Shown here in pieces: positions 1 through 54,587 of a DNA stretch of 64,000 nt. A program made the translations under genes and the position numbers. Below the pieces are notes generated by a model. The model worked only from the letters and a program-made list of their open reading frames with translations. It did no database searches and was not told where the DNA came from. Location: positions 63,453-127,452 of the forward strand of contig RWJK01001639.1 of assembly GCA_004335835.1 (NCBI GenBank), in the 5' to 3' direction. The stretch is from Scenedesmus sp. ARA3 (taxonomy: Eukaryota; Chlorophyta; Chlorophyceae; Sphaeropleales; Scenedesmaceae). The number at the start of each line of letters is the position of its first letter. Within the stretch, counting starts at the first letter, position 1.

Positions 1-2215
1 TGCACCTATGTGCTGACTTTGCTCCCTCTGCTGTCCTCCGCTGGGATTTGTGATGCACATGACGTGCTGCTGTTGCTGCGGTTGCTGCTGCAGCTCGAGT
101 CGACCAGGCACCCGCCCGGCGTCGTGCGCTCCCCGCTGCAACCTGAAGAAGTCAGGGGCCTGGCTCGCAGCGGGGACCTGTCACGCATGCTGCCCAGCGA
201 GATGGCGCTGCTGGCACATGGCTGGCCTCGCAAAGTCAAGGTGCCTGCAGCAGGGCAGGATGCAGCAGCAGCAGCAGCAGCAGTGGGGCAAGCTGGCGGT
301 GGTGTGGCTACAGCCAGCACTGAGGATGCGCAGTTGATTGAGGAGGAGTACTTTCTGCCAGGTGGGGGTGTGAGCGATATCTTGTGGTATCTTTTGCTGT
401 GCACAACAGCAGGGTCAGCGCTGTCTGCGAAACTGAGCGCCCGCTGATTGCCTTGTTGCATCGCTCGTGCTTTCACGCTGCTTTTCGTTGTATGTACTCG
501 CTGCCCAGCATCCTATCGGAGCATGTGCTCCATGTGACTTCCCCTTGCTGTCTGCATACAGGCATGCATGCTGCATGCTGTACTGGCTTGCGGGCCTCAT
601 CTGCTGCAAGCTTCGTATGCTGTGTCTGTCTTGTGTCCCTCTGGCTGCAGGTGCGCATGCTGCGCGCATGCTGCACCGCGTGCGACGTGCGGAGCGCATG
701 CTGCTGAGCTACGAGCGCTGCGGCTGGCTTGATGACACGCCCAGCAGGCTCACGGGGCGGCAGGTGGGTGGGGCTGTGCGGTCTCGTCGGACATGTTGAT
801 TCCGTGTGTGTTCAACAGCGTGAGTGTAAAAAGGGTGTGGACATGCAGGTCGGGGCCTTGATCTCTTGATTGGCAGCGTGGCATGGAAACATCAGCTAGT
901 TTGTTTGTCCACTGAGCTGCACGACATTTTGGGTTCTTTGATACCATACCCCGATTCTCGATCATCCCTGCTGCTGCTGCTTGCAGGAGATCCGCCCTGC
1001 AGCAGAAATGGGTCCAATCATCCTGTGTCTTGACACCAGCGGCAGCATGCGGGGTGCGCGTGAGTTGGTTGCAAAAGCGCTTGCGCTGGAGTGCATGCGT
1101 GGCGCGCACCGGCAGCAGCGGCCGTGCTACTTGTACGCATTCAGCGGGCCAGGTGGGTTGCAGGCAGGGGAGTGGATGAAGGACGAGACGATGTGAAGTT
1201 GCCGGCGAGATCACATGGCTTGTTTTGACTGGGGTGCAGGAGCTGGAGCTGTCACTTGACCTGCCCAGCGTGGACAAGCCTTTCGCTACACCAGGCTGAT
1301 GTGATCGGCTTTGTAGCATGCACGACTGTTGTGTGATGCCATGTACTCCACATGCTGGAATCCCTGCTTCAGTGCGGCGCAGGGCTGATGATCATGTTGC
1401 AATGGCTAAGCTGCTGACACTTTGTTGATGCTGGTGCCGCGCTGGCAATGAAAGCACACCCAGACCAAGTCAAGGAGCTGCAGCTGTCGGTGGACTTTCG
1501 GCCTGGACAAGTTTTCATCACATCTGATCGAACTTTAAGCTTTGAACTTTGACGTGTTGCTGCTGCGTTGCACTACTGCTTACTGCTTACTGCTTGCAGA
1601 CCAAGTGCAGGAGCTGGAGCTGTCTGTTGACCTGCCCAGCCTTGAGAAGCTGCTGGAGTTCCTCAGCTGCTCCTTCCAAGGGGGTACTGACGTGGACAAG
1701 CCGCTGCAGCTGAGCTTGGAGCGGCTCCAGAAGGACGAGTGGGCCAAGGTGAGGAGAATGGATTTGATGGCTGTTAGTAACAGCTGATAACTTTTTGAAT
1801 TGGGTTTTCTGAAATGTGGGGTGGGGCGGCACGGACGTGGACAAGCCGCTGCAGCTCAGCCTGGAGCGGCTGCAGAAGGACGAGTGGGCAAAGGTGAGGG
1901 GGTTGTTACATTGTCAGTAACATTGTGAGGCGGTGGCGTGAGTTCGATGTGCAGTCATGCAGCTGTGCAGTGCAGGCGCTGCTGTCTGCTGCACAGCAGA
2001 CGCGGCTGTGCATGCGCACCGCAGCTGCTTGTATATCAACCAACTGAACGATTGCGTGCACCGCTGCTGCTGCTGTCGCTGCATGCATCAGGCGGACATC
2101 CTCATGATTACTGACGGACAGATTGCACCACCAAATGAGAAGCTGCTGGCCGACATTGCTGCTGCTCATGACGAGCCAGCCGGATCTGATGTGTCACCGC
2201 TCCCACTTCCTCCTC

Positions 2216-2261
<46 letters not shown>

Positions 2262-2499
2262 GGCTGCTGCTGCCGCTGCATGCATGCAGGCGGACATCCT
2301 CATGGTGACTGATGGCGAGATTGCACCACCAAATGAGAAGCTGCTAGCTGACATTGCTGCTGCTCATGATGAGCTGGGCCTAGAAGTGCACGGGCTGCTG
2401 GTCAGCAGCCAAGTCAGTGACAGCATGGAGAAGCTGTGCACACACCTGCACGTGTTCAAGTCCTGGAGCGCTGTGGGCGCCGAGAGCTGGATGTACTGA
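1..2499 (+). CDS. VWA-domain (ViaA/CoxE-like) protein, 5' truncated
   Basis: The C-terminal part of a von Willebrand factor A protein runs off the left edge. Supported exons are ..-361, 651-763, 987-1152, 1600-1748 and 2290-2499 (stop TGA 2497-2499); phases agree at each junction. A complete metal-ion-dependent adhesion site is visible: CLDTSGSMRG (DxSxS) in the third exon, the threonine in FQGGTDVDKP in the fourth, and the aspartate in ILMVTDGEIAPP in the last. The segment before the VWA (RSGDLSRMLPSEMALL, then RRAERMLLSYER) and the end (HLHVFKSWSAVG) match the architecture of bacterial ViaA, the partner of the MoxR-type AAA+ ATPase RavA; that comparison is from family knowledge. Function in algae is unknown. 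Decayed copies of exon 4 and 5 edges lie in the introns. The start and the first exon's 5' boundary are not visible; a Leu-rich CTG-encoded stretch before about position 93 may be intronic. Confidence 0.8.
1239..2371 (+). repeat. Duplicated exon edges in the VWA gene
   Basis: The start of exon 4 (1600) has decayed copies at about 1239-1281 and 1465-1504. The end of exon 4 with its donor (about 1686-1755) is repeated at 1828-1900, still followed by GTGAGG. The start of exon 5 (2290) is preceded by a copy at 2092-2172, which runs into a CTG tract (2218-2277) without a donor. Confidence 0.8.
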
Positions 2500-3994: not shown

Positions 3995-6900
3995 TAGCAG
4001 CATGCGGGGCTGGCCACAGCAGTGCAAAGCAGTGCACAGCGGCGGCGGCGGCAGCAGCAGCAGCAGCCTCAGCATGTGGGGCTGGCTGCACCAGCCGAGA
4101 GCAGTGCACAGCAGAGCAAGCAGCAGCATGCTGGTTTTGCTACAGCAGTGTGAAGCAGTGCACAGCAAAGCAAAACAAGCAACTGCAGCAGCACCAGCAC
4201 CAGCAGGAGCTGCTGGGTGGCACCCCATTTTATTTATCTTACTATCACCTCAGCAGGGTTAGCTGAAGTGTAGCAGTGACACTTCAGCGGCACTGCAAGC
4301 ATTTCAGTGGCCAGCTGTAGCAGCAGCAGCCTGCACACCGCCGCTTGTTTTTGGCAGTAGCACACTAGCAGCACACAGCCGAGCAGGTGGACGTTGCTCT
4401 ATGCAGACCACCATGCCTGTGTGTCTGCATGCCAATGCCGAACTGTATGCCCACACATATGATTGCTCATGCTTACATCGCATGCAACGGACCGTGCGCT
4501 GCGCTGCATGTGTGCTGCTGTCCTGCAGGAGCTGTACTTCCGGCACCTGTACGCCAAGACGCAGCCATCACTGCGTGCCCGCTGCGAGAGCTGGGACAAC
4601 TACTGCGACCTGTTCGGCGTCATCCTGCACGGTGCGCAGCAGCAGCAGCATATGCAGCCGTAGCATCAGCAGCAGCAGCAGTGGAATGGAGCAGCAGCCC
4701 CAGCAACAGGGGTGCAAAACGGTGTTGGCCTAGAGGACGCAGTGGAGCATCAGCAGTTGGCGGCTGCAGCAGCAGCCCCAGATGGCACCAGCTGGCAATG
4801 CTGGTGCAGCACCCAAAAAGCACAGCACAGCTGCTGCATGTGCAGGAGCAGCTGCGGCAGCAGCAGTGGAGGCAATAGTAGCATGACAACTGATACTCTG
4901 CTGGAACAGCAACCCAAGCCTAGCTTGCAATGTAATGCACGTGGCAGGCAATCGGCACTCACTTTGGCTCCATGTGTCGTTTGCAGCTGCTGACATTCTT
5001 TTATAGGAAACAGATGTAATTGCTGCTGCTGCTGCTGCGTCCACAGGCAACGTGAACATGCTGCTGCCCAACAGCTGGCTGTGGGCCATGGTGGACGAGT
5101 TCCTGTACCAGTTCCAGAGCTTTGCGCAGTACCGCACCAAGCTGGCAGGCAAGAGCGCGGAGGAGATCGAGCTGCTCAAGAAGTGCGACAAGGTGGGCTC
5201 TTATTAGGGTTCAGTTGTAATTGGGTATTGCCCGGGTTCAATGTCACTGCGGTTACATGTCACAGTTCAGATGTGGTGGCTGGCAAGCGCGCAGAGGAGA
5301 TTGAGCTGCTGAAGAAGTGCGACAAGGTGCGGCTGAGTTATGGTTTATGAAACGGTAGTGTCGATGACCAGAGCCCAACGACAGGGTGTGGATCAGGACG
5401 CAGGGAGCCGTGTGTGTTTCTGGCAACGACATCTGGCAGTTGATTACGTGGTAGGCGCACCTTCATATCACTGATGCGGTTGCTGCTGCTGCTGCTGCTG
5501 GGTTTGCAGGTGTGGAACATCCTGGACGTGCTCAACGTGCTGCAGGCGCTGATCGACAAGAGCGGCATCGTGGCTGAGCTGTCGCGTGACGGTGGCGCTG
5601 AGCTGGCAGCGCACGACGGCTACATCCCGGGGCAGAGCAACGTGCTGCGCATGCTGGGCTACTTCAGCCTGGTCGGGCAGCTGCGGGTGAGCGTTATGCA
5701 ACATGTTACAGTATGTTACTTTGTGACCCGTAAGCGTCATGTACCCAATCATGCAGGAGACGCTGCAGCTCTCCAGCAGGGTGCTCTGCTTGGTTGGCCA
5801 TCACTAGGTGCAGTGCCGGATCGGGGACTACAGCACACGCCCGCAGCCTTTGTACCCATTTGGTACGCCGTCACTCATTAGTAACATCTGTCTTTGCCGT
5901 TTCTGTAGGTGCACTGCCTGATTGGCGACTACAGCACGGGCCTGCAGAGCCTGTTCCCGCTCAACCTGTTTGAGCGCGGCAAGCTGTACACGCAGCTGCT
6001 GTCGGGCTGCCACATCACGCTCTTCTACTACTCCAGCTTTGCCTACCTCATGCTGCAGCGCTACACGGACGCCGGCAGGTGCGGATACAACAGATTAGCT
6101 TTGACTCGTCATGCTTTGAACCAAGCACGGCACCATCATCTGTCTTGGGGTTGCAATATTACATCCAATATCTCCTGAAGAAGTTGTATGTATGTATGGC
6201 ACAAAGAGCAGAAGGACATGCTAGCTGGAAGTGATGCCCATGAAATCACACAATGCTTTGTCCCGAAAGTCACTCAGTGGCCCATGTGGGAACTTTTACG
6301 CTGATCCAGGACATTCAAGGGGGCTTTCTTTCCGTAAGCAGCGCGCTGCAGCTCGCAATGGTCTATATTATACAAGTGCATCGCTTTGGTGCTGCTGTGT
6401 GCCTCCAAGCATCATCATCATGTTTCAATGCTGCGCGTGCATCATGCTTACTGCAGCACATCAGTGGTCAGCACTATGCCAGGATGTGATGCCCATGAAA
6501 TCACACAATGCTTTGTCCCGAAAGCTGTCAAGGCTCATGTGGGAACTTAAACGCTGATCCCGGCTTAGTCAGATGTTTTGTTGCATCTAGCGATGCTGTA
6601 TCCGCAGTTGGCAAACAAGGTTTGCCACCTACCTTGAAAGAATCCAGCCCTGCTTTGAGCAGTGCAGGCTCTTTCACAATCGGTGGCAAAAGTGTTTTTC
6701 CAAATGCTGCAGTGTGCATCCCTCTGGCTGCTATACTGGGAGGTGATGCTCATGAAATCACACAATGCTTTGTCCCGAAAGCCTCCATGGCCCATGTGGG
6801 AACTTTTACGCTGATCCCTGCTCGAGCGCCCTTTAAGCATCCAGCCCTTTGGTACCATCAATCTCTTTCCACCCCTGCATTGCTGTTGGTTCTTCCCTTA

Positions 6901-9675
6901 CTCATTGCACACGCAAGCCCATCCGTTCATCTCGCGATCGTCCTGTCATACATCCATTGTGTGAAGCAGCCCACCACGCTCCGGCCTCGTCTCATATTAC
7001 TGTCCACATAACGCACACAACACATATGTGCCACCCCCGCAGGTGCCTCAACGCCATCCTGTCGTACATCCACCGCGTGAAGCAGCTGCACGCGCGCAAC
7101 GCAGCCTACGACCAGATCCTCAAGAAGAACGAGCAGATGTACGCGCTGCTGGCGCTGGTGGTGGGGCTGTGCCCTGCAGTGCAGTCCACGCTGGACGAGC
7201 ACGTGCTGGTTGCACTCAAGGACAAGTTTGGGGAGAAGCTGCAGGTAAATAACTGTTATGACATGTTATTGTTATGTTGTGGGTGGGTGGTGTTACGCCA
7301 GTGGTGGGGCTGTGCCCCGCAGTGCAGTCCACGCTGGACGAGCACGTGCTTGTTGCACTGAAGGACAAGTTTGGGGAGAAGCTGCAGGTGAACAACTGTT
7401 ATGATATGTTATTGTTATGTTATCAACTGTTATTTTTGTGGGTTGGTGGTGTTACGTTGTTGGTGGTGGGGCTGCGCCTGCAGTGCAGGCCACGCTGGAC
7501 GAGCACGTGCTGGTTGCACTCAAGGACAAGTTTGGGGAGAAGCTGCAGGTGAAACAATGTGTTACAACATTGTGCCATGATGTTACCCTTTGGTTGTTGA
7601 TGGAGCGACCATCGCTGTGGTTTGCCATGCAGTGGCCTTTTGTTTGTCAGGTGGCGTCAGTTGGCATAGGATGGGTGTGAAGCTGTTAGCGTCCGCGCTG
7701 CAGTGCGTTCTGCTGCTGGGAAGTGATGCCTTGAAATCACACAATGCTTTGTCCCGAAAGTCGTTCAACGGCCCATGTGGGAATTTTTACGCTGATCCCA
7801 GCAGTACATAGCCTGTGATCTGCATGCTGGTCGTAATGCTTTCATTTTTAGACCTACCGAACACTGGAAGCATCTCGTGCATCTCCCATCTGTTCTGCTG
7901 CATGCATGCTGTCTTGCAGCTTCTGTTTACGGCGACCAAGATCCACTGGTTCCGCAAGGCTTCGCTTGCCTTCCTTACCCTGTCTTATGTGTCACCCTTC
8001 CCATCATTTCTGGCCTGTGCCTGCAGCGCATGTTCCGTGGCGACGAGGGCCCGTTTGACGAGGCCTTCATGTTCGGCTGCATGCTCACCTCTTGTTGCCT
8101 GCTGTCCGAATGCCTGCTGCTTTGCAGCGCATGTTCCGCGGCGATGAGGGCCTGTTCGATGAGGCTTTCATGTACGGCTGCCCCAAGTTCATCACAGCAG
8201 CACCACCAGCCTATGACAACCCCTCAGCAGCAGGCCCACAGGAGGTGAGCACTGAGGCACAGGAAGGGATGGACTGCAGCATGCACTGCCTTCAAACAGC
8301 TCAGATAGATGCAGTTGTAGGCATTAGCATGCACACGCCAGCATACGACAACCCCTCAGCAGCAGGCCCGCAGGAGGTGAGCACTGAGGCTTCAGCAGCA
8401 GGGCTGCAGTGCAGTGAGAGCTGCATAAGAGGGTGAACAGCTGTACGAATGGCACACCTAGTCATGTGCTTAATGCACAGTCACCGCTTGGGCAACATGT
8501 AGCAAAAGCACTGATTAACAACACAAGCAGGCAGCGACAAGGATACTGTTTTTGTCTTTGTGGAACAGAAAGGCAGCACGGATTCGCGCCAGCCATCCCT
8601 GCAGATACACCCTGTTTACTGCTGCAGCCTGCTGCATCGCGGCGGATCCGACATATATGCTGATGTATCTATGTGTCGCCGTTTGACTCGCTGCACTGGC
8701 AGGCCTACCTGCGCCAGCACAGCCTGTTTCCAGCACCTCCCCAAGTCATCGGTTACTCCTTTACTGTTTAAAATTGTGTTTTGCGATGTTGCTGTCGCGC
8801 TCTCCTGCAGGCGTACCTGCGCCAGCGCAGCCTGTTCCTGCGCCAGGTGGGCGGCGTGTCGCGGCTGCCGCTGCTGAAGCAGTACCTGCTGCTGTACAGC
8901 AGCATCAGCCTGCCCAAGCTGGCGGGGCTGCTGGAGACAGACGAGGCCACGCTGCGCACTGCACTGGCCTGCCTCAAGAAGTCCAACTACTGGTGCGTCG
9001 CATGGGTTCGTTTAAATGTTTTTGAGCTTTTCAGGATGTTGTTATTCACAGCTGACAAGCCCGCGCTGCGTCATGAGTCCTCCACTGCTGGTGGTGTTGC
9101 ATGAATGAGCAGCCCGTTCAGACACAACTGGATTTACGCCCTTCTGTCTGCCTGCCGTCATGCTTTTGTTTCCTTGCTTGCTGCTTCATTCCGCAGCCTG
9201 CAGTGGGATGGTGGCCGCGACATGACCAGCGGCAGCTTCACCTCAACAGCAGACATCGACTTCTACATTGACGTGGACACAGCAACGGGAGCAGAGCTGG
9301 TCATGCTCAGCGACAACATCACCACGCGCCACCAGGTGCGCTGCCGCTGCTGCTGCTGCTGCTGCTTCTGTGTTGGTATGCTTGCCTGCTTTGTAAGCCC
9401 TTAAATGCTGTTCAAACCAATAAACCAGCACTCCTGTGTTGCAAGAGGTCAGGTTTGTTGATCCAATCGGTCATCATCCTTTGCATCAGCCCATGCTGGT
9501 TGATAAGTCATCGGATCTGCGGTTGCAGTGAGCACTCGTGTCTCCCCTGCATGCGCTGCTGCTGCTGCTGCAGGCTGAGCTGCTGAGCCGGCACATTGTC
9601 AAGTTTGAGGCGATTGTGCGGGACCTGGAGGCGCCGCCAGTGGCAGCAGCAGCACCAGCGCAGGCCGCATACTGA
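3348..9675 (+). CDS. eIF3l: Eukaryotic translation initiation factor 3 subunit L
   Basis: Non-core subunit of the cytosolic eIF3 complex, which loads mRNA on the 40S ribosome. Eleven exons close exactly in frame (526 aa): 3348-3442, 3680-3827, 4529-4631, 5047-5192, 5510-5686, 5909-6078, 7043-7244, 8128-8244, 8811-8992, 9197-9335, 9574-9675. The start is the first ATG, giving MAFRDYDPYERDYGIVPD, a typical eIF3L N-terminus. Diagnostic blocks include ELYFRHLYAK, WNILDVLNVLQ, YIPGQSNVLRMLGYFS and FYYSSFAYLMLQRY; the second half carries the PCI region ending DVDFYID-like (ADIDFYIDVDT) and RHIVKFEAIVRDLE. Length is close to the human protein. Introns 4 to 8 contain extra copies of exon edges, and introns 6 and 7 contain four snoRNA-like elements. 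Co-transcription of snoRNAs with a translation-factor host gene fits known eukaryotic practice. Identity is very secure. Confidence 0.96.
3855..4180 (+). repeat. Degenerate minisatellite in eIF3L intron 2
   Basis: Five units of about 50-90 bp. Each has a core like GCTACAGCAGTG followed by AGCAGTGCACAGCAG, then a CAG-rich tail; most end in AGCAGCATG. Units start near 3855, 3915, 4004, 4077 and 4131. The length differences come mainly from the CAG runs. Confidence 0.75.
5278..5332 (+). repeat. Copy of eIF3L exon 4 end
   Basis: Repeats the last codons of exon 4 (AGKxAEEIELLKKCDK), followed by GTGCGG, downstream of the real donor at 5193. A second junction copy lies at about 5806-5862, a decayed version of the intron 5 acceptor and the start of exon 6 (TAGGTGCAxTGCC then GGxGACTACAGCAC). 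Confidence 0.8.
6225..6309 (+). ncRNA. Box C/D snoRNA-like element, copy 1 (eIF3L intron 6)
   Basis: Box C-like GTGATGC (6231-6237) and box D CTGA (6301-6304) are closed by a perfect 5-bp terminal stem, CTGGA (6225-6229) with TCCAG (6305-6309). The internal conserved block contains CAATGCTTTGT immediately before a D'-like CCGA. That 11-mer is the reverse complement of ACAAAGCATTG, which I recall as part of a highly conserved LSU rRNA segment. Length (85 nt), intronic position and a translation-factor host are all typical of C/D snoRNAs. The box C is imperfect (GTGATGC instead of RTGATGA). Confidence 0.7.
6478..6564 (+). ncRNA. Box C/D snoRNA-like element, copy 2 (eIF3L intron 6)
   Basis: Same conserved body as copy 1, with GTGATGC at 6486-6492 and CTGA at 6554-6557. 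The terminal stem has a different sequence but still pairs: GCCAGGAT with ATCCCGGC, with one internal mismatch. The variable spacer after CCGAAAG differs from the other copies. The segment before box D carries changes (GGCTCATG, TTAAACG), so this copy's second guide may be altered. Confidence 0.65.
6738..6818 (+). ncRNA. Box C/D snoRNA-like element, copy 3 (eIF3L intron 6)
   Basis: GTGATGC at 6743-6749 and CTGA at 6811-6814. The short terminal stem is GGGA (6738-6741) with TCCC (6815-6818). The CAATGCTTTGTCCCGA block is intact. Confidence 0.65.
7157..7556 (+). repeat. Three tandem copies of eIF3L exon 7 end plus intron start
   Basis: Unit 1 (from about 7157) is the real exon end with donor at 7245. 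Units 2 (about 7300-7390, donor context CAG|GTGAAC) and 3 (about 7470-7550, CAG|GTGAAA) repeat the last ~88 bp of exon and the beginning of the intron, including ACTGTTATGAxATG. Copies 2 and 3 differ by scattered substitutions, so they are not assembly echoes. Confidence 0.9.
7713..7804 (+). ncRNA. Box C/D snoRNA-like element, copy 4 (eIF3L intron 7)
   Basis: GTGATGC at 7723-7729 and CTGA at 7792-7795, with the longest terminal stem: nine base pairs, CTGCTGGGA (7713-7721) with TCCCAGCAG (7796-7804). The body lacks two bases after box C but keeps CAATGCTTTGTCCCGA. It sits in a different intron from copies 1-3. Confidence 0.7.
8027..8392 (+). repeat. Copies of eIF3L exon 8 start and end
   Basis: An upstream copy at 8027-8072, after a CTGCAG acceptor, encodes RMFRGDEGPFDEAFM-like sequence before the real exon 8 (8128). 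A downstream copy of the exon end and donor (AYDNPSAAGPQE then GTGAGCACTGAGG) lies at 8340-8390. The start of exon 9 is likewise pre-copied at about 8699-8735. Confidence 0.85.
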
Positions 9676-33514: not shown

Positions 33515-33548
<34 letters not shown>

Positions 33549-35422
33549 CGCAGGCGACTGCCATGTGCGGCCGCTGTTTCAGCACATGTTTGTGCCGACA
33601 GTCGGACCCAGCCTGTCTTTTATAGGCCTGCCGTGGCGCTGCGGAAAGATGCCTCAGTTCCAACTGCAGGGGCAGCTGCTGTACACACATATGACTCTCC
33701 AGGTGGCTCGTTTAGTCCCAAAATACAATCTGCAAGCCTGACACACTTCCGTGCACTAAACCACAGCCGCCACCGCCGCCGATGCTGCTGCTGCTGCTGT
33801 GTCCTGCTTGCGCAGGTGATTGCCATGTGTGCCCGCTGTTCCAGCACATGTTTGTGCCGTCAGTGGGGCCCAGCTTGTCTTTCATAGGCCTGCCGTGGCG
33901 CTGCGCAAAGATGCCTCAGTTCCAACTGCAGGGGCAGCTGCTGGCACGGCTGCTATCAGGCAGGGCATGCCTGCCTTCTGCTCAGCAGATGATGCAGGTG
34001 AGCCATGAAATGACGTGCTTCTGCAGTGTGGCTTGGCACTGCATCTGAACTGGCCAGCAATGGTTGCGGTACCACCTGTATTGCATGTGTGGCTGCTGCT
34101 GGTGGGTCGACAGCTCATCGGGCAGTTGAGGAGAAGATGGTACTGTTTGCCTCAGTGCCAGTATAGCCAGCTGCAGGGGCAGCTGCTGGCACGGCTGCTA
34201 TCAGGCAGCGCGCAGCTGCCTTCTGTGCAGCAGATGATGCAGGTGAGACTGCTGCTATGCCATGTGATGTAGCGTTGCATGCCGTTGTGTGAGGGTTCAG
34301 AGCTATTATGGTGTTGTGCCATTTCAGACTGTGTGTGCAGTTGCCGCTGATGGCTTGGCAGATTATCGGGCAGTTGAGGCGATGACAGCAATAGCTTGCC
34401 TGAGTTCCAGCTGCAGGGGCAGCTGCTGGCACGACTGCTGTCTGGCAGGGCACAGCTGCCACCAGCACAGCTCATGTTGCAGGTGAGAGTGCATTTGAAC
34501 ATATACCTTGTAGCAAGCCCGGCTCTGTCAAAGTTGTGTAGATAAGGACGATTCTAAGCATGGTAAAAGCATAACTGCGCACCTTCAAGCAACGCTGTGT
34601 GTACAGCCGGGCGTGGCAGCACGTTATCCTTGCTTGGTGGGGTCAAAGGTCCTGCTGCAGGGGCGGCTGCTGGCACGGCTGCTCTCCGGCAGGGCATGCC
34701 TGCCTTCAGCACAGCAGATGATGCAGGTAAGAGTGCATTTGAATACACTGTGTACCAAGCCCGGCTCTGTGTAACGGTGTGTGACAACTGCGGCAGCATC
34801 TTTGCTTTGCTTGGCATGCCTGCCCCCAGCGCAGCAGATGATGCAGGTGGGGATGAGGGATGAATTGCCTGCCATTGCATGACAGATTGACGGCCTCATG
34901 CTCACTACATTGCATAAATGCGTAGAGCTGGCTGCCGCCGGCGACTTCGCACAGCAACAAACAACTTCAAGCCAAGTTGGCTTGAGCAGCTCAGAGTACA
35001 ATCAATCACTCTACATAACTAAGCCTGTGTGTGTACATGTGTGTGTACTTATGTACTGCCACCCGCTGGCCTGCCGCAGGCGCAGCAGCAAGCTTTTGAA
35101 GTCATGGCAGCAGCCGGCATCCCTCGCCGCTACTCGCACTGCATGGCAAAATTCATGCCTCAGGATGAATGGGCTTATGCTGAGGCGCTGTGCCGCCTAG
35201 CAGCAGGTGATACAGAGGACCAGCAGCAGCAGCAGCGGCGGCAGCAGCAGCAGCAGCAGCAGCAGTGCCAGCATGCCGGGGTAGGTGGCAGCAGCCTCAG
35301 CTGCGGCTGCAATGGCGCACACAGTAGTGTGCAGTCTGAGACAGCCTACGGGCTGCCAGCAGCAGATGCGCAGCATGCAGACCTCCTTCGGGACTTGCAA
35401 CAAGGTGATGCAGCAGTAGGAA

Positions 35423-39883: not shown

Positions 39884-42800
39884 ATGCATCGCAGGATCTC
39901 ACATGCAGCCTGGATTGTACTGCTAGGTGAGTTAAGCTTACACTGCAGGCATCGGACTTGTGATCAGCAGCTTGTCGCCTGTTCTTGACCACCAAGCTGC
40001 GCTGTCAGCATACCTTCGGCCACATCACTGCTTCAAAAACATACATTTGACTATTTATATCGTCTTAATACGCAATCCGGTTGGGTTGCTGCAGGACTCA
40101 GCGCATATGCAGTCGCCCTAGCCAACGCAGACCCTCTAGGCCTCAGGCTGCTTCTTTCCAGCGACCCTGTGAGTTTGTTTTACAATTTGTTGCGGTTAGC
40201 TTTGCGTTTAGAGCATGCCTGCTGTCAAGTACACTCGTCGCTGCCTGGCAGTGACACGCCCTTCTTGGCTGCCTGCAGGAATCTGTGCACAATTTGCATT
40301 GCTGTTGCCCTCAGTCCCACATGTCCCTGCTGCCTCAGTATCACTCTTTGAGCTTGGTTTGTGCAATAAAATCCACGCAGTCTTGCATGCTGGCCTTCAG
40401 CCTTGCACTTTGCTGCCAACCACCTGCCTCATTACCTGCTGCAGGTGCCGGACCATGTGCTCGCACATGTGCAGCAGCACGGCAGCAGCAGCTGGCACGC
40501 AACCCAAGCAGACAGCAGCAGCAGCAGCAGCCAGGCCGCAGACCAGCGGCGGCAGTTGCACCAGGCGATACCAATCCGGGCAAATGCACTCAATGTAAGA
40601 CCTGGCTTGCAGGCATCAGCGGCTCGTCCTGCAAGCTGGGCTACGGCCAGCATAACACCCAGCGTCCGTGGTTTTGGCATCCCTAAAACCTTCCTGGGTA
40701 TATCTCACGAGTGGACAAAGGTGGAGGAGCTGAATCAGCCTGGCTCATATTTGCAGCTGATACAGGACCTGACAGCGTATGGTGGAGGGCCCTTGGTAGT
40801 GCGCATTGGCGGAGGCAGCACTGACCAGCAAACAGCGCCTGCTCCGGCTTCTACTTGGAATGAGCTGCGGCAGCTGCAGTACAAGACAGGTGAGCAGCTG
40901 TGTGACTGATGGTGGATGGGAGTACCATGGTTTGCTGGTGTATGTGCTTGTTGGAGCAGCTGCAGCTCATTTCAAGTGCTCAGGCTCTGCACATAGTAGG
41001 AATACGGTGTATGTATGAGGGCCAGGACCTGAAAAGTCAGCATCTGTTACATAGTGGGAAGTTTAGTGGAGGTGTTGCGATGCAAACGCAGCAAGTGCAC
41101 CGGTGCCTCCCTTGAAAAGGGCAAATCCACCAACAGTGCTGCACTGGCATCAGCTCTTGCATGCATGCCCCCTTCATGCTGGTAGTTACGGCAAAACCTG
41201 CGCCGCTTTTCTGCAGGTGTAATGTACATATTTGGGCTGAACTTCAAAAAGGGTGACGTGGCACTCGCTAAGAGCCAGATGGATACCATCTTCAAAGAAA
41301 TCCCTTACTACTCTATCATGTCATTTGAGCTGGGCAATGAGGTGGGCAGCAGCACTCAGCTAGCCTGACTGCCAGGCTCTGACAGAAGCAGCAGCAGCAG
41401 CAGTAGCAGCACGGCAGCCATGCACTTGGCCACAGGGGCAGGGGCAGGCTGAGCAGCACCTGTTAACAGCAACAAAAGCCGCAGTGTTAACAGCAACACA
41501 AAAGCGACACGTGTGTGCCGCCTCTTGTGAACTTGCCAGCCTTTCGCACTCAGCACTCCAAATGCACATGCTTCTTGCTTCGCCACCTGACATGCACCCT
41601 GCACTCCTCCATGGCGCATGCACATTTTTGCAGCCCAACTTCTACGAGGGCATCTACGGCAAGAGCAGCAAGGACTAAACTGGCTGCCATACCCACTACT
41701 CACTGTTTCATGGTGCATTTGCGTTTCTGCAGCCCAACTTCTACGAGGGCATCTACGGCAAGAGCAGCAAGGAGTACATTGCCTGCTGCTTCGTAAACGA
41801 CTGGGAGCGCTTCGTCAAGGCGCTGTCCTGCAAGAACCCAGCGCAGTTCTCCACATGCACGCCCGGCCAGTTTGCAGGTGCGCAGGCACACAAGCAGCAT
41901 TTTTTTTAATTTTGTTGTCTGCTGCGGATGATGCGAGGCAGCCAGCTTTTGCCTCTCGATTGGTTGTGAAGTGGCCCTAATGCAGATGACGTGCTGCTCC
42001 GCGAGCGGCAGCACGGCAGCCGCAGCAGCACGGCTTTGTTGACTTCCCCGCGGCAGTAGCTCAGCAGCGGCGGCAGCAGCAGCACAGCATGACTGATACC
42101 CACGTACTGCAGCATCGCGGCGTTACATGTGATATTGTCCAAACTTCTAAATGTCACCTGCTTGCTGCATTGCTGCACGTGCCCGCTGCAGGTCCCGTGT
42201 GGGGTCACGTCAACATGTTCCCTCGCACCATGGAGTGGTTCCTCAAGTAAGCAGCTGCGCTGGCATCTGACACTGCACTGTACTGCCTGTTGCTTTGGGT
42301 TGTTGAATGCTGTACTGTGTACACATGCGTGCTCAGCAATCCCTGCGGAAACCTAGCTATAATGATGTGAATCACAGCACAGCACAACACCAGCCTTGCG
42401 GCACTGCGGGCTCATCACATTAGCTTGCGTCGCTGCACCTTTGCAGGGTGAATCACCCCTATATGAACCTGGTGACGGTGCACTGGCACAAGGCACATCT
42501 TCCTGAACTTGTGGCAGCACTGCATTGACACTGTGAACATGCCTGCTTGCCTCTGCTGCTCCATTGCAGGGTGAACTACCCCTATATGAACCTGGTGACT
42601 GTGCACTGGTACAAGGCACATCTTCCTGGACTTGTGGCAGCACTGCGACTGACACTGCGAACATGCCTGCTTGCTTCTGCTACACCTGGCAGGGTGAACT
42701 ACCCGTACATGAACCTGGTGACGGTGCATTGCCTTCTCTTAACGCCTCTTGCCAATGCTGCGTCTCCTTTACTTTGTGCTGCAGGGTGAACTACCCCTAC

Positions 42801-44225
42801 ATGAACCTGGTGACGGTGCACTGGTACAAGGCGCGTACTCACCCAAGTTAAGGCAGCGTTTGACTGACACTGTTCTTGTGCCTGCTTGCCTGTGCTGCGT
42901 CTCTCACAACCCCTCAGGGTCAACTACCCCTACATGAACCTGGTGACCGTGCACTGGTACAAGGCGCGGCGCGAGGACCAGAACACGGTGCAGTCCCTGC
43001 TGGCGGAAGGGCCGGTGCGCACTGAGATGGCCAACCTGCGCAAGCTTGTTGAGATCAGCAGGCGGTGAGTCGAGGTTGAATGTTACTGCTGCCCGGGGAT
43101 ATAGCTGCATTGGGTTTGGTGCAGCGGCGCGCACTGAGATGGCCAACCTGCGCAAGCTGGTGGAGATCAGCAGGCGGTGAGTTGTTCAGCAAGGTTGCGG
43201 GATGTCATTTTGACGTGGTTGTTTGGGTGTGGTGTTCATGAGAGTGGCCCTTATGCCAGCACTGGAAGCGCTCTGTGTGTCTTCTGGCAAGGCTGCAAGC
43301 ACATCTGGCAGTGTTTCTGTCGCTCCCTGGTCCACTCCTTTGTGAAATGTGGCGGCCAAACACTTTGCTTCACTGCAGGATGGTACATTGGTGAGCTGCA
43401 TCACACGCTGCCTGCACCCTGCTGTCGCTTGCGCTCTCGCTGCCTAGCTCTTGCCATACAATGCATGTGTTGCCGCCCTCACGCTGCAGGTACGGCAAGG
43501 ACCTGCGAGTGGCCGAGATGAACACCATCAGCAACAGCGGCCGCGAAGGCCTCAGCGACAGTCTGGCAGCAGCACTCTGGACCCTGGATGGAGCCCTGGA
43601 AGTAGCCAACACCGGAGCAGTCGGCATCAACCTGCATTGGGGAGACGGCTTGGCCCTGTATGCTGCATTACTGCGGCAAAAGACCGGCGCCGCATACGTC
43701 AAGCCCACATACTATGCGTACCTACTGCTGCAGATGGCGCTGGGATCAGGGGCACAGCTGGTAAAGCTTGATCTGCAGGCGCTGCCAGGAGCTAAACTGA
43801 AAGTTTGGCCGCTGTTGGATACGAAGAGTGGCGCAATGCGCATTGTACTGATCAACAAGCACGCCACAGCAGCCGCCGGCATGTCTGTTCGGCTTCCAGA
43901 TGACGGCTATGCAGATGGGAAGCTGCTGCGGCTGCTGGGCAAGCGCGGGCTGGAAGATGAGTGGGGTGTTAGTTTGGGAAATATGACATATAACCTCGGC
44001 GGCCAGGTGTTTGGCGATCCGGCTGGCGAGATCATTGCTAGGGAGGAGGCAGCTGCAGCAGCAGGGCCTGCCGCTGGCGCGAATGCAGGGGCAGTGGTGA
44101 CGGAGGCTGGCAGCAGCAGCGGGGCAGCAGCAGCATCAGCAGCTAGCAAGCCAGGCGTGAAGTACACGGTGATCATGCCGGCTGGATCTGCTGCGTTGCT
44201 GGTGATCCCTAAGCAGCCCAAGTGA
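39884..44225 (+). CDS. GH79 family beta-glucuronidase/heparanase-like glycosidase
   Basis: Secreted retaining glycosidase. Exons 39884-39926, 40095-40168, 40445-40889, 41217-41341, 41733-41877, 42192-42246, 42918-43064, 43490-44225 close exactly (589 aa); an in-frame ATG at 39869 would add five residues. The N-terminus is a signal peptide (AAWIVLLGLSAYAVALANA). The TIM-barrel signature includes FLGISHEW, GPLVVRIGGGSTD, the acid/base Glu in MSFELGNEPNFYEG, LVTVHWYK, and the likely nucleophile Glu in LRVAEMNTISNSG, followed by SDSLAAALWTLDGALEVAN, the GH79 C-terminal pattern. Family members act on glucuronic-acid glycans such as arabinogalactan proteins or heparan-like chains, so a cell-wall or matrix role is likely. 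The NEP codons are split between exons 4 and 5. A Gln/Ser-rich linker follows the signal peptide. Exon edges are duplicated in introns 4, 6 and 7, and the 3' coding end is duplicated after the stop. Confidence 0.87.
41625..41796 (+). repeat. Duplicated GH79 exon 5 start
   Basis: TTGCAG acceptor plus PNFYEGIYGKSSK occurs at 41628 and again about 104 bp later. The first copy continues into GACTAA (stop); the second (exon start 41733) is the real exon. Confidence 0.92.
42440..42970 (+). repeat. Five copies of GH79 exon 7 start
   Basis: CAG|GGTGAAC or GGTCAAC followed by YPYMNLVTVHWYKA-like sequence begins at about 42449, 42571, 42692, 42786 and 42918. All copies keep an AG acceptor. Only the last reads through to REDQNTVQSLLAEG and a proper donor at 43065. 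Confidence 0.93.
43125..43185 (+). repeat. Copy of GH79 exon 7 end and donor
   Basis: RTEMANLRKLVEISRR followed by GTGAGT repeats the real exon end (donor 43065), about 115 bp downstream. Confidence 0.9.
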
Positions 44226-44279: not shown

Positions 44280-44460
44280 TGCAGCAGCTGCTGCAGCAGC
44301 AGGGCCTGCGGCTGGTGCGAATGCAGGCGCAGTGGTGACGGAGGCCGGCAGCAGCAGCAGCGGGGCAGCAGCAGCAGCTGGCAAGCCAGGCGTGAAGTAC
44401 ACGGTGATCATGCCAGCTGGATCTGCTGCGCTGCTGGTGATCCCTAAGCAACCGAAGTGA
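44280..44460 (+). repeat. Duplicate of GH79 3' coding end
   Basis: Encodes AGPAAGANAGAVVTEAGSSS, then PGVKYTVIMPAGSAALLVIP, and its own TGA (44458-44460), nearly identical to the real C-terminus at 44065-44225. It is preceded by TGCCTAGCAG, a possible acceptor, so it could act as an alternative last exon; otherwise it is part of the 3' UTR. Confidence 0.85.
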
Positions 44461-44753
44461 CGCTTGAAGCTTGGCTGACTGCTGCTTTCTTTTGCCTGGC
44501 AGCTGCAGCAGCAGAAGCAGTAGTGATGCTGTTGACAGACAAGCCATGTGTTAGGGCGAGCGAGTAGCATTCACTTGCGTCCGCAGTGCTTGTGGTGTTG
44601 CTGCAGGCCCTTGCCAATCCCCATGCATCAGCAGCAGCAGTGAAAATTGGTTGAACCTGTGTGTCAGGGTGTGTGGGCCATGCAGGTGTTGTGTCAGCTT
44701 GACTGTGGGCGTTGGTTGTGGTGTTTTGTTGTTGCTGCTGCTGCTGCTGCTGC

Positions 44754-48915: not shown

Positions 48916-51842
48916 ATGCAGCGAATGTCTGGGCTGTTGAGGCCTGTGGAAAGGACAGGCTTGCGACGAGCTGGCCATGCCGCGCGAGGCTTGCAGTCGC
49001 AACAGCACACGCGTTCAGCTCTTCTACGATACAACAGCGCAAGTCACGGGCGGCAGAGCCTGCTGCAGTGCCCGCATGCAGTGCAGCCCAGCCAGTCTCT
49101 GCACAGCACTGCTGGGAACGGCAAGGAGCAGCGGATCAAGCGCTATGCTGGCCTTACTGCGGATGATTTCAGGTGCAGAAACGTATTGAAGTTGGCTGGA
49201 CTCCTCCTAGCCAAGCACTGCACCACACACCTGCAGTTGTGCTGTACCTCCCGTCTTGCTTGGCTTCTGCCGCTGCTGCTTTGATGTTTGCTTGCGTGTG
49301 CGTGCATGCATGCGTGCGTGCATGCGCACTTAGTATCAAGGTGCTGCTGCTAATGCTCCTGCAGGCACCCTCTAGACCAGCAGAACACCAGCCTTATACA
49401 GGCGCTGCCTGGCATGGACTTTGTGGCAAAGACCCTCATGGGTGAGCGCAGCAAAGAGCCAGTGCTGCAGCAGCTGTGACAACAACAGCGGCAATAGCAG
49501 CAGCAGCAGCAGCAGCAGGGCTGCTATCGGAGCAGCTGAGGTGTGGGGGCACCATCAGGGTGGCAGCGGCCAATCCGTCAAGCCTGGCGCATGGCAGCTC
49601 ACAGCAGCATGAGCATGTGGCACAGCAAAGGCGCCATCGTGCGTCTATGCTTGCAGCGGCTTTCACATCACACTTATGCTCCGCATCTACATGCCGCTGC
49701 GCGCTTAAACATCTCTCACACACACAACACTACAACCAAACAAACCAACAGCTGGCTGTGGTCTCTCTGCGCTGTGGTGCAGGCCCTGTTGCTGAGCAGG
49801 TGCTGCTGCTGGAAAACATCGCCACGTCCATCAAGACAGGCCCGGACCAGCTGCCCACAGTGCACAACCTGCTGCTGGATGCTGTGAGTGCACTGCTAGC
49901 TGATAGCCAGCTTCTGTTAGCTAGCTATCTACTATACCAATTATCAAGCTCTTGGAAGTGGCAGTGGCAGCATCAGTAGCATCTGCGTACACAGCACAAC
50001 CTGCTGCTGGAAGCTGTGAGTGCACTGCCGGTTTATACCTATCTACTACAATTACTGTAGAGCATTCAAAGTCAGAGGCAGCAGCTGCTGCTGCTGCTGC
50101 TGCCTACAGTGCACAACCTGCTGCTGGAAGCGGTCAGTGCGCTGCCAGGCAGTTGACGTTGACACTTGGCGTCACCAACAGCAGCTGAATCTGCAATCAG
50201 CACCAGCAAAGCAGGATGAACAATGTGCAGCTTGGCTTCTGGAATGCGTCAATGCAAAAATGCTCACTCTGGTATGCGTGGCTTGGTGTCAATGCTCAAT
50301 CAGCAGAGGCTTATGCGGCATGGCCTGCACAAAGCCTGCAGCAGCAGCGCGCGCACTGCACTTCCACACACTGCCCTGGCAGCTTGGATGGCCCCTCACT
50401 GCCTTTTGTCACCATTTTCTGCACCTTCTCTGCACCATGCAGGCTGAGGTGCTGCAGATGGAGCCGCCGGAGCTGTATGTGCGCCAGAACCCCAACCCCA
50501 ACGCCTATACCCTAGCCATCACGGGCCGCAAACCCTTTGTGGTGGTGCACACCAGCCTGCTGGAGCTGCTCACACTGCCTGAGCTGCAGGCGGTGATCGC
50601 TCACGGTGAGCAACAGCCATTGGCTCCAAAGGTGTCACTCTCATCTGTTTGCAATTTTGGTGGTGTTGGTGGCGTTGACAGCGCAGCAGGCTACAGTCAG
50701 TGGCTGGAGCTGCTGGGCCTGCTTGAGCCGCAGGCAGTCACGGCACATGGCCAGCTGCAGCAGGAGGGGTGCATAGGCGTTGCCTCTCGACAGTACTGCT
50801 GGTGTTGGTGGTGCACACGAGCCTGCTGGAGCTGCTGACGCTGCCTGAGCTGCAGGCAGTCATCGCACACGGTGAGCAAAAGCCATCGATCCTAAGAATG
50901 TCACTTTTATGTCCTTTTGTGGTGTTGGGGATGCTGGCGGTGCACACCAGCCTGCTGGAGCTGCCCATGCTGCCTGAGCTGCAGGCAGTCATCGGACACG
51001 GTGAGCAAAAGCCATCAATCCTAAGAATGTCACTTTTATGTCCTGTTGTGGTGTTGGGGATGCTGGCGGTGCACACCAGCCTGCTGGAGCTGCCCATGCT
51101 GCCTGAGCTGCAGGCGGTCATCGCACACGGTGAGCAACTGTGTTTCAGCATTCTTGCTGTCGCTACTGTTGTTGTTGTTGCTGGTACCGTGGTGGTGCAC
51201 ACCAGCCTGCTGGAGCTGCTCACACTGCCTGAGCTGCAGGCAGTCATTGCGCACGGTGCGTAACTGTGTTTCTCCATACATTGCTGTTGCTACTGTTGCT
51301 GGTATTGTGGTGGTGCACACCAGCCTGCTGGAGCTGCTCACACTGCCCGAGCTGCAGGCAGTCATCGCACACGGTGCGTAACAGCCATTGGCTCCAAAGG
51401 TGTCACTCTCATCTGCTTGCATTTTTGGTGGTGTTGGTGGCGTTGACAGTGCAGCAGGTTACAGTCAGTTGCTGGAGCTGCTGGGCCTGCTTAAGCTTCA
51501 GGCAGTCGCGGCACATGGCCAGCAGCAGCAGGAGGGCTGCATAGGTGTTGCCTCTTGACAGTACTGCTGGTGTTGGTGGTGCACACCAGCCTGCTGGAGC
51601 TGCTCACATTGCCTGAGCTGCAGGTGGTGATTGCACGGTGCGCAATCGCGTCCTCTCTACGTTCTTGTTGCTGTTCGTACTGTTGGTAGTGGTTTAGCGC
51701 ACAGCCGTTTTGGCTTTGGGTGTTGTTTGAAAGTACAGGCAAGGTACAGAGAGCTGCTGACCATGCTGAGCTCGATGTTCAAGCCTGCAAGTGTGTTGCC
51801 AGCCTGCGCGTGGTGGTATGATGCCTGAGTGTTGTAGTGTGT

Positions 51843-51873
<31 letters not shown>

Positions 51874-54587
51874 GCAGAGCTGGGCCACCTCAAGTGTGAC
51901 CATGGGCTGTGGCTGACCACAGCCAACGTGTTGGCGAGTGGCACGGTGTCTATACTGCCGTTCATATCAGGTGCGGGGCGCAGTTCGACCGCGTCGGCTT
52001 GCCTGTGACACAGCTAATGGAGATGGGTTGGGAACTGGGTCATGATGGTAAGCAGCAATGCTGTCAGTGGCAGTTGGGAGTGCACAGCACGGCTGCAGGT
52101 TAAGGAAGTGTTGCAGGCAACTGCAATCTGCACAGCTGTCCTCAGCTCAGTTGTGCTGGCTGATGGCAGGTGTCCATCCTGTCGCTCATATCAGGGGTGG
52201 AGGCGGGAATGAGCAAGTGGCTCAAGCCAAGCAGCTGGTGGTTGCAACCACCAACAGCATGCTGTTGAGGAAGCGCCTGCTGTCGTGTCTGCGTGCCTTG
52301 TTGCCACTCGCCCATACTTGTGCTGTTGCCACGCCACATCACACTTGAGCAGTGGCCCAAGCCAGCCTCTCCACCTAGTATGAGCGGCTTGAAGCTCGCA
52401 GCTTTAGTGCAGCTACTAATAATTAATTTATGGGTCTGTGGTCTAGTCAGTGATGCGGCAGCTGCTTTTCAACCACATCGCCAGATGTCAGGGCGCTGCA
52501 TTGCAGCAATCAGCGATCAGAAGCAGTGGTTCGGGCAGAAGCACTGAAACAGACAGCTACTGAGCTCCTTGTACACCTCTTTTTTGAATTCCTTATTCAA
52601 TGGGTTGGGATCGAGCTGGATCAAGCTGGGGGGTTGTGCAGCAACCTCACTGGCCAGAGATCAGACATCGCAATGATCGCAACCATCCATCACAAGGCTG
52701 CTGTGGACTTCAAAAGGCAAATTCATGTGTGTTGCTGTATAACAGATGTGCTGACCTGCTGCAGGCACGGTTGACGACGCGCTGCTGCGCTGGCTGCGCA
52801 ACAAGTCACATAACAACATATATATCTTCAAATCTTTATGCTGCTGTATGCTGACCTGCTGCAGGCACGGTTGAGGACGCGCTGCTGCGCTGGCTGCGCA
52901 ACAAGTTACATTACTATCTTCAAATCTTATTGCTGCTGTATGCTGCGCTGGTCATTGCTGACAGGCTATAATAACAATCCCTGCGCTGCTGCGTATGTCA
53001 GCGTATGCTGCACTGCCGCAGGCACGATTGGGACGCGCCGCTACGTATATTCTTGACTGATCACACATCTTGTGGTGGTATGTATGATGTGCTGCTGCAG
53101 GCACGGTGGAGGACGCGCTGCTGCGCTGGCTGCGTGCAGCGGAGCTGACATGTGACCGTGCAGCGCTGCTGGTGGCTCAGGACCCAGGGGTGGTCATTGG
53201 TGCACTCATGAAGCTAGCTGGCGGTAGCCCTGCCTTTGCACACGAGCTCAGTGTGGACGCGTTCCTGCAGCAGGTGCGTTGGAATTTGGACCTGCTGATG
53301 CGGGTGATGGCTGTCGCTGTCTGCAGCTGAGTGCTTTCATGTAACAACGGAGTGTGCTGGTGCGTGCTGAGGCTGTTGAGGGTGTTCAGAGGATTGCTTG
53401 GCTTCAAGTTGTGGTAAGCATTCCGGGGTGGTGATTGGTGTGCTGATGAAGCTGGCGGGCGGCAGCCCTGCCTTTGACACGAGCTGAGCGTGGGCGCGTT
53501 CCTGCAGCAGGTGGGTGGCGGGCGGGTGTGTTGATGCGGCTGATGGCTGTCTCTTTGTGCAGTTGAGTGCGCATGCGTGTGTGCTGATGCATGCTGAAGT
53601 GGTCGAGAGCGTTCACAGACTTGCTCGGCATTGCTTTGAATCTCAAGGTGGCCATTAGGGCACTCATGAAGCTGGCGGGCGGCAGCCCTGCCTTTGCACA
53701 CGAGCTGAGCGTGGACGCGTTCCTGCAGCAGGTGGGTGGCCAGCTTAGACATGGGTGTGTGCTGGGCAGCCGTGTTGGTGCCGAAATTTGAGGGTGCCAA
53801 GAGCGTTGTAACGTCAGGGATACTGCTGGCCTTGTGTGTGTTGTTGCTGTTGCGGACCCTGGCGTGGTCATTTGGTGCACTCATGAAGCTGGCTGGCGGC
53901 AGCCCAGCCTTTGCACACGAGCTTAGCGCGGATGCCTTCCTGCAGCAGGTGGGTGGTGTGTGGGCTTGTTGATGCGGGTGATGGCTGTGTGATGGCTGTG
54001 TCTGTGCGCAGTTGAGTGTGCACATATGTGTGCTGGTTGATGTTGACGCTGTTGAAAGTGTTCAGGGGATTGCTTTGCTTTCCGTCTCACACCGTGTGCC
54101 TCCATTGCTCCAACCTGCTGTTGCTGCAGGCGCGCTCCGTTGATGAGGCGACCAACAGCAGTATGCTCGGCTGGTACCTGCTGCCACACACCTTCTCTGA
54201 CATCATAAACTTCGTTGGCTCCAACTTGCCGTCTCAATCTGCTGCTTCAATCTGTCGCCGCAGGCCCGGTCATACGATGAGGTGACCACCAGCAGCATGC
54301 TTGGATGGTACCTGCGCAATGCACAGACACGTGCGCTCAGCCATCCACTGCCAGTGATGCGTGCTCGGGAGATAGACCGCTGGGCCCAGGGCGTGCAGTA
54401 CAAAGCGCTGCTGGCGCGCAACAGGACGGTCAGCATCCCTATCACTAACGGCAGCAGCATCAACAGCAGCAGCAGCAGTAGCGGCGGCGGCGGCAGCAGC
54501 ATTGCAGGGAGCAGCACAGCAGCGGCTGGCGGGCCTGCCGGCGCTGCTGCAGGCGCGAGCAACGGCTACCGGCAGGCTAGCAGTTGA
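48916..54587 (+). CDS. M48 family zinc metallopeptidase, plastid type
   Basis: Seven exons close exactly to 395 aa: 48916-49172, 49365-49441, 49783-49883, 50443-50605, 51878-51970, 53101-53273, 54264-54587. The first ~75 residues are Arg/Ser/Gln-rich without acids, typical of a chloroplast transit peptide. Then come HPLDQQNTSLIQALPGMD, PELYVRQNPNPNAYTLAI, VVVHTSLLELLTLPELQAVI and the zinc site AHELGHLKCDHG (HExxH), followed by RAAELTCDRAALLVAQDP with the third zinc-ligand Glu in the AELTCDRA motif, and LSHPLPVMRAREIDRW. This closely parallels the plant chloroplast M48 protein At3g27110 as I remember it. The Glu codon of HExxH is split by intron 4. The C-terminus is a Ser/Gly/Ala tail. Five exon edges (3 end, 4 end, 6 start, 6 end, 7 start) are duplicated in adjacent introns. 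Substrate unknown. Confidence 0.93.
49855..50150 (+). repeat. Three copies of M48 exon 3 end
   Basis: GTGCACAACCTGCTGCTGGA plus GCT|GTGAGTGCACTG (real donor 49884) recurs at about 49988-50032 and 50107-50147. The last copy has GCG|GTCAGT. Confidence 0.88.
50540..51645 (+). repeat. About nine copies of M48 exon 4 end and donor
   Basis: The exon end VVHTSLLELLTLPELQAVIAH plus G|GTGAGC (real donor 50606) recurs at about 50811-50875, 50938-51005, 51067-51135, 51194-51262 and 51312-51380, with decayed versions near 50690-50755, 51460-51525 and 51580-51640. Period about 125-130 bp. Most keep CACACGGTG at the donor. They occupy most of the 1272-bp intron 4. Confidence 0.94.
52755..53135 (+). repeat. 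Four copies of M48 exon 6 acceptor and start
   Basis: CTGCAGGCACGGTTGA or CTGCAGGCACGGTGGAGGAC, then GCGCTGCTGCGCTGGCTGCG, at about 52760, 52858 and 53101 (real), with a decayed one near 53018. Only the last reads on into AAELTCDRAALL. Confidence 0.9.
53195..53955 (+). repeat. Four copies of M48 exon 6 end and donor
   Basis: GALMKLAGGSPAFAHELSVD plus AFLQQ|GTG (real donor 53274) recurs at about 53430-53513, 53655-53733 and 53873-53950. The second unit lacks one base (CCTTTGACACGAG). The exon 7 start is also pre-copied at 54131-54186 (ARSVDEATNSSMLGWYL). Confidence 0.93.

Follow-up and report, generated by a model that had tools for sequence, protein, structure and literature searches.

Copies of exon edges in the introns of Scenedesmus sp. 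ARA3: one-sided placement, coding constraint and a possible origin

How introns come to hold copies of the edges of their own flanking exons, and why such copies keep to one side of the exon, is the question raised by a 64-kb stretch of the genome of the green alga Scenedesmus sp. ARA3 (contig RWJK01001639.1, positions 63,453 to 127,452; host genome of 87.3 Mb in 1,567 contigs). This stretch, hereafter the window, has 55.7% G+C and is free of N. A preliminary description of it had claimed that introns were lengthened by tandem duplication of their splice junctions. We confirmed that exon-edge copies are real and spread widely through the genome, and we found that most of them carry the mark of coding selection. 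The whole analysis was carried out on the DNA sequence of this one genome.

Copies of exon edges and their placement

Local direct repeats were sought by self-BLAST of the complete window, which yielded about 70 pairs, and by Tandem Repeats Finder (TRF), and the introns of seven window genes were modeled by hand as a curated set. The results showed that 19 of 48 curated introns contained copies of a flanking exon edge: 12 held the exon end with its donor (donor-type), 11 held the exon start with its acceptor (acceptor-type), and four of them held both. Block-shuffled controls for these introns gave no match (0/3,840). Wrong-side copies, that is, donor-type copies upstream or acceptor-type copies downstream of the real edge, were absent from the curated introns (0/31 and 0/29). 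Introns with copies had a median length of 566 bp versus 235 bp for those without, which bears out the proposed lengthening. An excerpt of PMC5966456 gives Tetradesmus obliquus 57% G+C and introns averaging 462 bp, versus 230-302 bp in the four other algae listed there.

Random genome stretches, annotated with our own hidden Markov model gene finder, served as a sample. In the window and sample together, searched up to 700 bp with 70-bp probes (to which shorter spacings are invisible), copies were detected for 53 of 181 donor probes (48 downstream, 16 upstream) and 48 of 175 acceptor probes (44 upstream, 11 downstream), and reversed decoy probes gave 0 copies. Genes with seemingly genuine coding repeats were excluded post hoc (L022 and parts of L019, L017 and L007), which dropped 41 of 158 copies. 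The gene at 2962-9331 of stretch L022 is seemingly built of many tandem coding repeats, its predicted exons themselves being repeated. After the exclusions, copies accompanied 36 of 159 donor edges (34 downstream, 2 upstream) and 32 of 153 acceptor edges (31 upstream, 1 downstream), leaving three wrong-side cases among 68 edges with copies. One of these was a gene-finder error (window 2092-2472, where the predicted exon runs through both copies), and the remaining two lie in L006 and L008.

The whole genome was also searched with profiles of four families (CCT, kinesin, tRNA-synt_1 and HSP70), which gave 294 listed matches in 59 contig-strand groups. A pair was defined as matches overlapping by at least 15 profile positions and no more than 2 kb apart, and only the best candidates were scored, so that the counts are lower bounds. 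Among the listed matches there were at least 21 overlapping pairs, 9 of the right polarity, 0 of the wrong one, 9 staggered forward and 3 equal; the staggered-forward pairs are compatible with the polarity without deciding it. The random sample and the profile searches agree with the curated set that the copies are widespread, and their placement around exon edges is polar rather than random, as first described.

The load was uneven. Over the 17 random stretches of 2.8-10 kb scanned for repeats, local repeats ranged at least from none in L013 and L014 to 57% of bases in L021. CCDC40 had exon-edge copies in 1 of its 15 introns, and the remaining curated genes in 18 of their 33 (post hoc Fisher test, p 0.0016). 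Array load thus differs strongly from gene to gene, with CCDC40 (20875-26783) at the low end.

We examined the structure of the copies. They lie adjacent and head-to-tail, as intronic tandem repeats do, in arrays of up to nine units. The distance to the nearest copy varied between about 80 bp and several hundred and was 110-130 bp at 24 of 91 edges, so that the unit size of 100-180 bp given earlier captures a common class and understates the range. With a tolerance of 4 bp around the expected position, 147 of 158 copies retained GT or AG, as had been claimed. Across 158 exon-copy pairs, identity was 0.89 on the exon side versus 0.59 on the intron side (shuffled 0.39-0.43), dropping immediately beyond the splice consensus, and homology extended into the intron by a median of about 10 bp. 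Splice sites of copies and of real edges scored alike at the median for donors (6.49 versus 6.34; means 5.31 versus 5.83), and acceptors gave medians of 6.13 versus 6.57 and means of 4.69 versus 6.02. The copies are local: the one exon-plus-donor probe tried in a genome search, from eIF3L, found its own locus and two local copies only. The eIF3L and FolD exons had no second locus in the assembly, and none of the three tested exons (eIF3L, FolD and GH79) had a second near-full-length copy there; GH79 had ten other short partial matches.

The gene names used here are those of the preliminary description, and homology supports six of them. The FolD model is complete without the copies, and both Pfam THF_DHG_CYH domains are matched nearly end to end. 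The reading frame of eIF3L is intact and colinear with PDB eIF3L chains. The coiled-coil gene of the window is CCDC40: its top PDB match is FAP172 (Flagellar-associated protein 172; 3.1e-240), a chain that we take to be from Chlamydomonas, and other matches are named CCDC40. Pfam supports the GH79, FMO and M48 models, and the HELGH motif of M48 is interrupted by an intron that carries an array. The VWA label is unconfirmed, as that fragment had zero Pfam family matches. The copies in the window are as follows.

1234..1279, plus strand: VWA, acceptor-type copy of the start of the exon at about 1600
1825..1899, plus strand: VWA, donor-type copy of exon end; real junction after 1748
2063..2176, plus strand: VWA, acceptor-type copy of the start of the exon at about 2288
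5277..5334, plus strand: eIF3L, donor-type copy of exon end; junction after 5192
7301..7553, plus strand: eIF3L, two donor-type copies of exon end; junction after 7244, copy junctions at 7387 and 7548
8022..8080, plus strand: eIF3L, acceptor-type copy of the start of the exon at 8128
8326..8414, plus strand: eIF3L, donor-type copy of exon end; junction after 8244
18183..18530, minus strand: FolD, three acceptor-type copies of the start of the last exon (17891-18088)
19123..19532, minus strand: FolD, donor-type copies of the end of exon 19533-19634; period about 116
19704..19758, minus strand: FolD, acceptor-type copy of the start of exon 19533-19634
25010..25056, plus strand: CCDC40, donor-type copy of exon end; junction after 24921; sole copy found in the 15 introns
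28776..29959, plus strand: FMO, eight donor-type copies of exon end, with two main types of spacer alternating irregularly between interleaved units; junction after 28724
30446..30752, plus strand: FMO, donor-type copies of exon end; junction after 30339
31674..32095, plus strand: FMO, acceptor-type copies of the start of exon 32173
33055..33330, plus strand: FMO, two donor-type copies of exon end; junction near 32993
33516..33681, plus strand: FMO, acceptor-type copy of the start of exon 33816
34167..34846, plus strand: FMO, four donor-type copies of exon end, the fourth partial; junction after 33997
41602..41687, plus strand: GH79, acceptor-type copy of the start of exon 41733; carries a stop codon, decaying class
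42423..42835, plus strand: GH79, four acceptor-type copies of the start of exon 42918
43125..43182, plus strand: GH79, donor-type copy of exon end; junction after 43064
44287..44514, plus strand: GH79, copy of the coding-sequence end including the apparent stop codon, beyond the real one; repeat pair 44049/44287
49980..50148, plus strand: M48, two donor-type copies of exon end; junction after 49883
50806..51645, plus strand: M48, six donor-type copies of exon end; junction after 50605, in the intron splitting HELGH
52749..52945, plus strand: exon at 53100 (taken to belong to M48), acceptor-type copies of its start
53425..54080, plus strand: three donor-type copies of the exon end at 53273

Other repeats in the window include plentiful CTG/CAG triplet runs (for example 2219-2279, by TRF). 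An element of about 80 bp occurs four times in eIF3L introns (6227-6310, 6474-6565, 6731-6822 and 7716-7802); its copies are 86-91% identical, irregularly spaced and unrelated to exons, and it is probably a dispersed repeat. Further tandem pairs without a verified exon edge lie at 14754-14951, 39200-39422, 58965-59316 and 62835-63340, and possibly include the site first assigned to a MYND gene.

Coding constraint and splicing potential

Differences between exon and copy fell on the three codon positions in the ratio 126:137:444 (144 copies). After the exclusions, 107 of 117 copies were compared (10 were dropped for gaps or low identity), giving 99 nonsynonymous (N) and 260 synonymous (S) differences and 74 codons with multiple hits; a stop codon was present in 3 of the 107. 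Given that 0.759 of random substitutions are nonsynonymous, N changes should make up about 0.61 of the differences between a dead copy and a constrained exon (the N fraction). Pooled over 61 arrays, with the nearest copy taken from each, the N fraction was 0.34 (binomial p 9e-21, a value that treats differences within a copy as independent; the use of one copy per array removes the non-independence within arrays). The VWA copy at 1825..1899 had 0 N and 6 S differences across 22 codons, and the GH79 coding-sequence-end copy had 0 N and 4 S across 24. These counts rule out that the arrays consist only of dead, decaying copies. A mutation bias at third positions was ruled out as well, since transversions there were suppressed at two-fold sites (11/660 versus 111/718 at four-fold sites after the exclusions) and transitions were about equal. 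The 34 copies of the window, mostly from homology-supported genes without protein repeats, gave by themselves 4/227 versus 43/218.

A two-class mixture placed 60% of the arrays at an N fraction of 0.18 and 40% at 0.56 (log-likelihood -92.5 versus -98.2 for one class). About 40% of the arrays are near-neutral and require nothing special; the in-frame decay claimed by the preliminary description fits this minority and is wrong for most copies. Where changes could be assigned to a single array member (24 arrays, 68 copies), real exons had 2 N and 20 S and copies 34 N and 59 S. Copies compared with one another differed by 87 N and 196 S (76 pairs). Divergence at positions 1+2 and at four-fold sites was 0.054 and 0.265 in multi-copy arrays, versus 0.084 and 0.230 in single-copy arrays. 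Most copies are therefore coding-constrained, though less than exons and unevenly, and multi-copy arrays more than single-copy ones.

The observed ratio of nonsynonymous to synonymous differences per site (pN/pS) was about 0.25, and the synonymous difference between exon and copy was about 0.3 per site (0.255 at four-fold sites). Young copies were scarce, with 8 of 83 below 0.1 before the exclusions. A gradient of constraint along the copy was apparent initially and was not significant once the comparison was limited to long homologies. A two-haplotype hybrid was also rejected, as array copies differed mutually without forming two groups in alignments read by eye.

We investigated whether the copies could be spliced, using all 158 copies, the 41 later excluded ones included, for the inner-edge and in-register tests. 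Donor copies had no excess of acceptors at their inner edge (35% versus 33% random, n=75), and acceptor copies had none of donors at theirs (17% versus 20% random, n=83), so the copies are not expected to lie within reach of canonical splicing. Donor arrays had no more sites for a seamless in-register join than the control (score 1: 5.3% versus 5.8%; score 3: 0 versus 1.2%); in acceptor arrays such sites were above control and rare (4.8% versus 2.5% at score 1, 2.4% versus 0.2% at score 3). Beyond the copy edge, the frame of the copy was not clearly open for longer than other frames, and copy distances were not multiples of three (47/58/53 by remainder). eIF3L aligned to PDB eIF3L straight over the array junctions without insertion, indicating that the copies are absent from that protein. 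These tests do not support the copies as complete extra exons, and they lend little support to the earlier suggestion that the arrays feed alternative splicing.

Origin and fate of the copies

A joint account in two layers, to which we give about an even chance of being right, is that tandem duplication and selection on the reading frame created the arrays and that exchange with diverged functional versions followed. In the first layer, short tandem duplications would fall across genes, with nearest spacings from about 80 bp up and 110-130 bp as the commonest class. A duplication spanning an exon edge would be harmless: the outer copy would stay attached to the exon and in frame, and the inner copies would turn intronic. 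Use of a later donor would add intron sequence, and the mirror case would hold for acceptors. Duplications within an exon would usually damage the protein and be mostly removed. Of the 65 repeat pairs that lay inside the 49 curated introns or up to 200 bp from them, none had both copies in exons. Of the 85 mid-exon probes taken from the sample, 4 had a copy, three of them in introns and one, in L011, in the same predicted exon. The polarity would follow because only the outer copy of a tandemly duplicated splice junction can remain in frame; it is then no separate rule, as had been proposed, and frame selection alone would yield both polarity and intron lengthening, without any need to recognize splice sites. 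The same probably applies to the GH79 coding-sequence end, where the array (44221/44287) probably spans the end with its stop codon, at which splicing plays no part, and not a splice junction. What we observed directly is that the copies exist, where they lie and that they are local; that the duplications otherwise fall at random is our inference.

In the second layer, the nearest copy in about 60% of arrays, with its mostly synonymous differences, would have spent most of its separate history as coding sequence. Unequal recombination may have joined diverged functional versions of an exon, such as alleles of different lineages, and part of the divergence would then predate residence in the intron. 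The remaining 40% would have decayed near-neutrally since duplication. Past exchange of this kind is the likeliest source of the constraint and received somewhat more weight than direct use; a route at the DNA level is favored because inner splice sites are missing.

Several observations weigh against this account. The functional divergence that it requires is very deep, about 0.3 synonymous differences per site, with no independent sign of it; a difference of that size far exceeds the usual diversity within a species. Arrays often hold several mutually differing copies (by eye), for which many lineages would be needed, and the three tested exons lacked a second near-full-length copy. Young copies were few. 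Exon-internal duplication exists, as in L011 (450-1113, a predicted 663-bp exon in minus-strand orientation with an internal repeat). The GH79 case may not be free of splicing, as its TGA overlaps a donor-like GTGAGG that our own gene finder called a donor. Purely intronic tandem pairs were not found in the 49 introns, a dispersed element aside, which leaves random placement unproven. For the constraint itself, present-day use would be simpler if a route into mRNA existed.

Such present use, with some of the copies joined in mature mRNA to the upstream portion of the exon (for acceptor copies, the downstream one) by an unrecognized route as one-sided, mutually exclusive exon ends, is in our view unlikely, though it deserves to be taken seriously. 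It is consistent with the constraint seen even among the copies themselves, with splice-site median scores resembling real ones and with the lack of significant loss of constraint toward the inner edge. It is opposed by inner edges without splice-site excess, by the rarity of in-register seamless sites (slightly above control as they are in acceptor arrays), by frames not clearly longer open past the edge and by distances indifferent to multiples of three. Another way to keep copies functional would be unequal exchange inside one array, returning copies to the functional position and purging decayed ones. The interleaved spacer types of FMO would fit this, as would the class with long intron homology, which has fewer S (2.75 versus 4.1-5.6) at a steady 2.2-2.4 N per nearest pair. 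In simulations, however, such exchange gave pN/pS of 0.52-0.55 at synonymous divergence of 0.15-0.5 and turnover rates of 30-300 (33, 84 and 54 pairs), and higher values at slower rates (6 and 3 pairs), well above that observed. The along-copy gradient that it predicts was weak and not significant in long homologies, and single-copy arrays are constrained too, if more weakly. Rotation within arrays as the sole cause was rejected because the simulated effect is too weak, and a leading part for it is very unlikely.

An assembly artefact, in which diverged haplotypes or strains were set head to tail, would explain why copies resemble functional alleles with mostly synonymous differences. We regard it as highly improbable: no join breaks the coding frame in curated genes, arrays reach nine units in a window without N, the copies are partly decayed (by their excess of N over real exons and by occasional stops), and the three exons examined lack a second near-full-length locus. 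False duplication would place identical or allelic copies regardless of frame; the complete absence of wrong-side copies from the curated introns and the N excess in copies speak against it.

A mechanism aimed at the splice junction, such as RNA-templated or R-loop-linked repair that copies exon edges into the adjacent intron, is a doubtful alternative. It would account for the lack of purely intronic pairs, for homology that stops a median of about 10 bp inside the intron and for the strong differences between genes, CCDC40 above all. Short introns and 130-bp units, however, make spanning the commonest outcome of random placement. When units of 130 bp were placed at random on exons with a median of 156 bp and introns cut off at 235 bp, about 61% of them fell across an edge, 21% within introns and 18% within exons, or about three spanning units per intron-internal one. 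By arithmetic from the curated counts, about eight purely intronic arrays would be expected if equally visible; the non-edge pairs in the 49 introns were three of this dispersed element and two in the second FMO intron, where donor copies went unrecognized by the script. Intron parts lose detectability sooner, and most intron-only pairs would be missed because intron parts diverge to 0.59 aligned identity. The probable stop-codon edge was duplicated too, and intron probes of the sample also had copies (8/55, 7/54 and 9/54), maybe within the same arrays. Since random placement favors spanning units and exon-containing copies are easier to detect, a preference for the junction is neither shown nor excluded.

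Known systems and meaning for the alga

In the internal gene duplication, or tandem genomic duplication, model of intron gain, as here, a short gene segment with splice-site sequence is duplicated and frame-keeping splice sites decide the outcome. Here, in contrast, an existing junction is duplicated and an existing intron lengthens, with no new intron shown, most extra copies are coding-like, and in-register seamless sites are rare. Intronic tandem repeats and minisatellites share the head-to-tail arrays of diverging copies, but the present unit includes an exon edge, and conservation is far higher in the exon half than in the intron half. Mutually exclusive exons also place duplicated coding sequence beside the original with mostly synonymous divergence; unlike them, the copies here repeat one exon edge only, with no excess of a second splice site. 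Introner elements likewise multiply intron sequence at many genome sites, whereas the eIF3L probe found local copies only (spacers alone were not searched genome-wide). Tandem duplication of gene segments and its link to introns is known in kind; the scale, the explanation of the polarity by frame selection and, most of all, the constraint on one-sided copies distinguish the present case within that kind. A limited literature search by title gave nothing on exon-edge copies in introns, and we do not claim their absence from print.

For annotation these arrays are a warning, as our own gene finder took several intron copies for in-frame exons. For genome biology, duplication of exon edges is a route by which introns lengthen, with a polarity that selection alone explains. 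The surprising part is the sharp anomaly of coding constraint on one-sided copies that canonical splicing should miss. There is a small chance that it means that this alga keeps spare exon ends under coding selection in many of its introns, and that an unrecognized route, through RNA or DNA, would lead them back into coding sequence.

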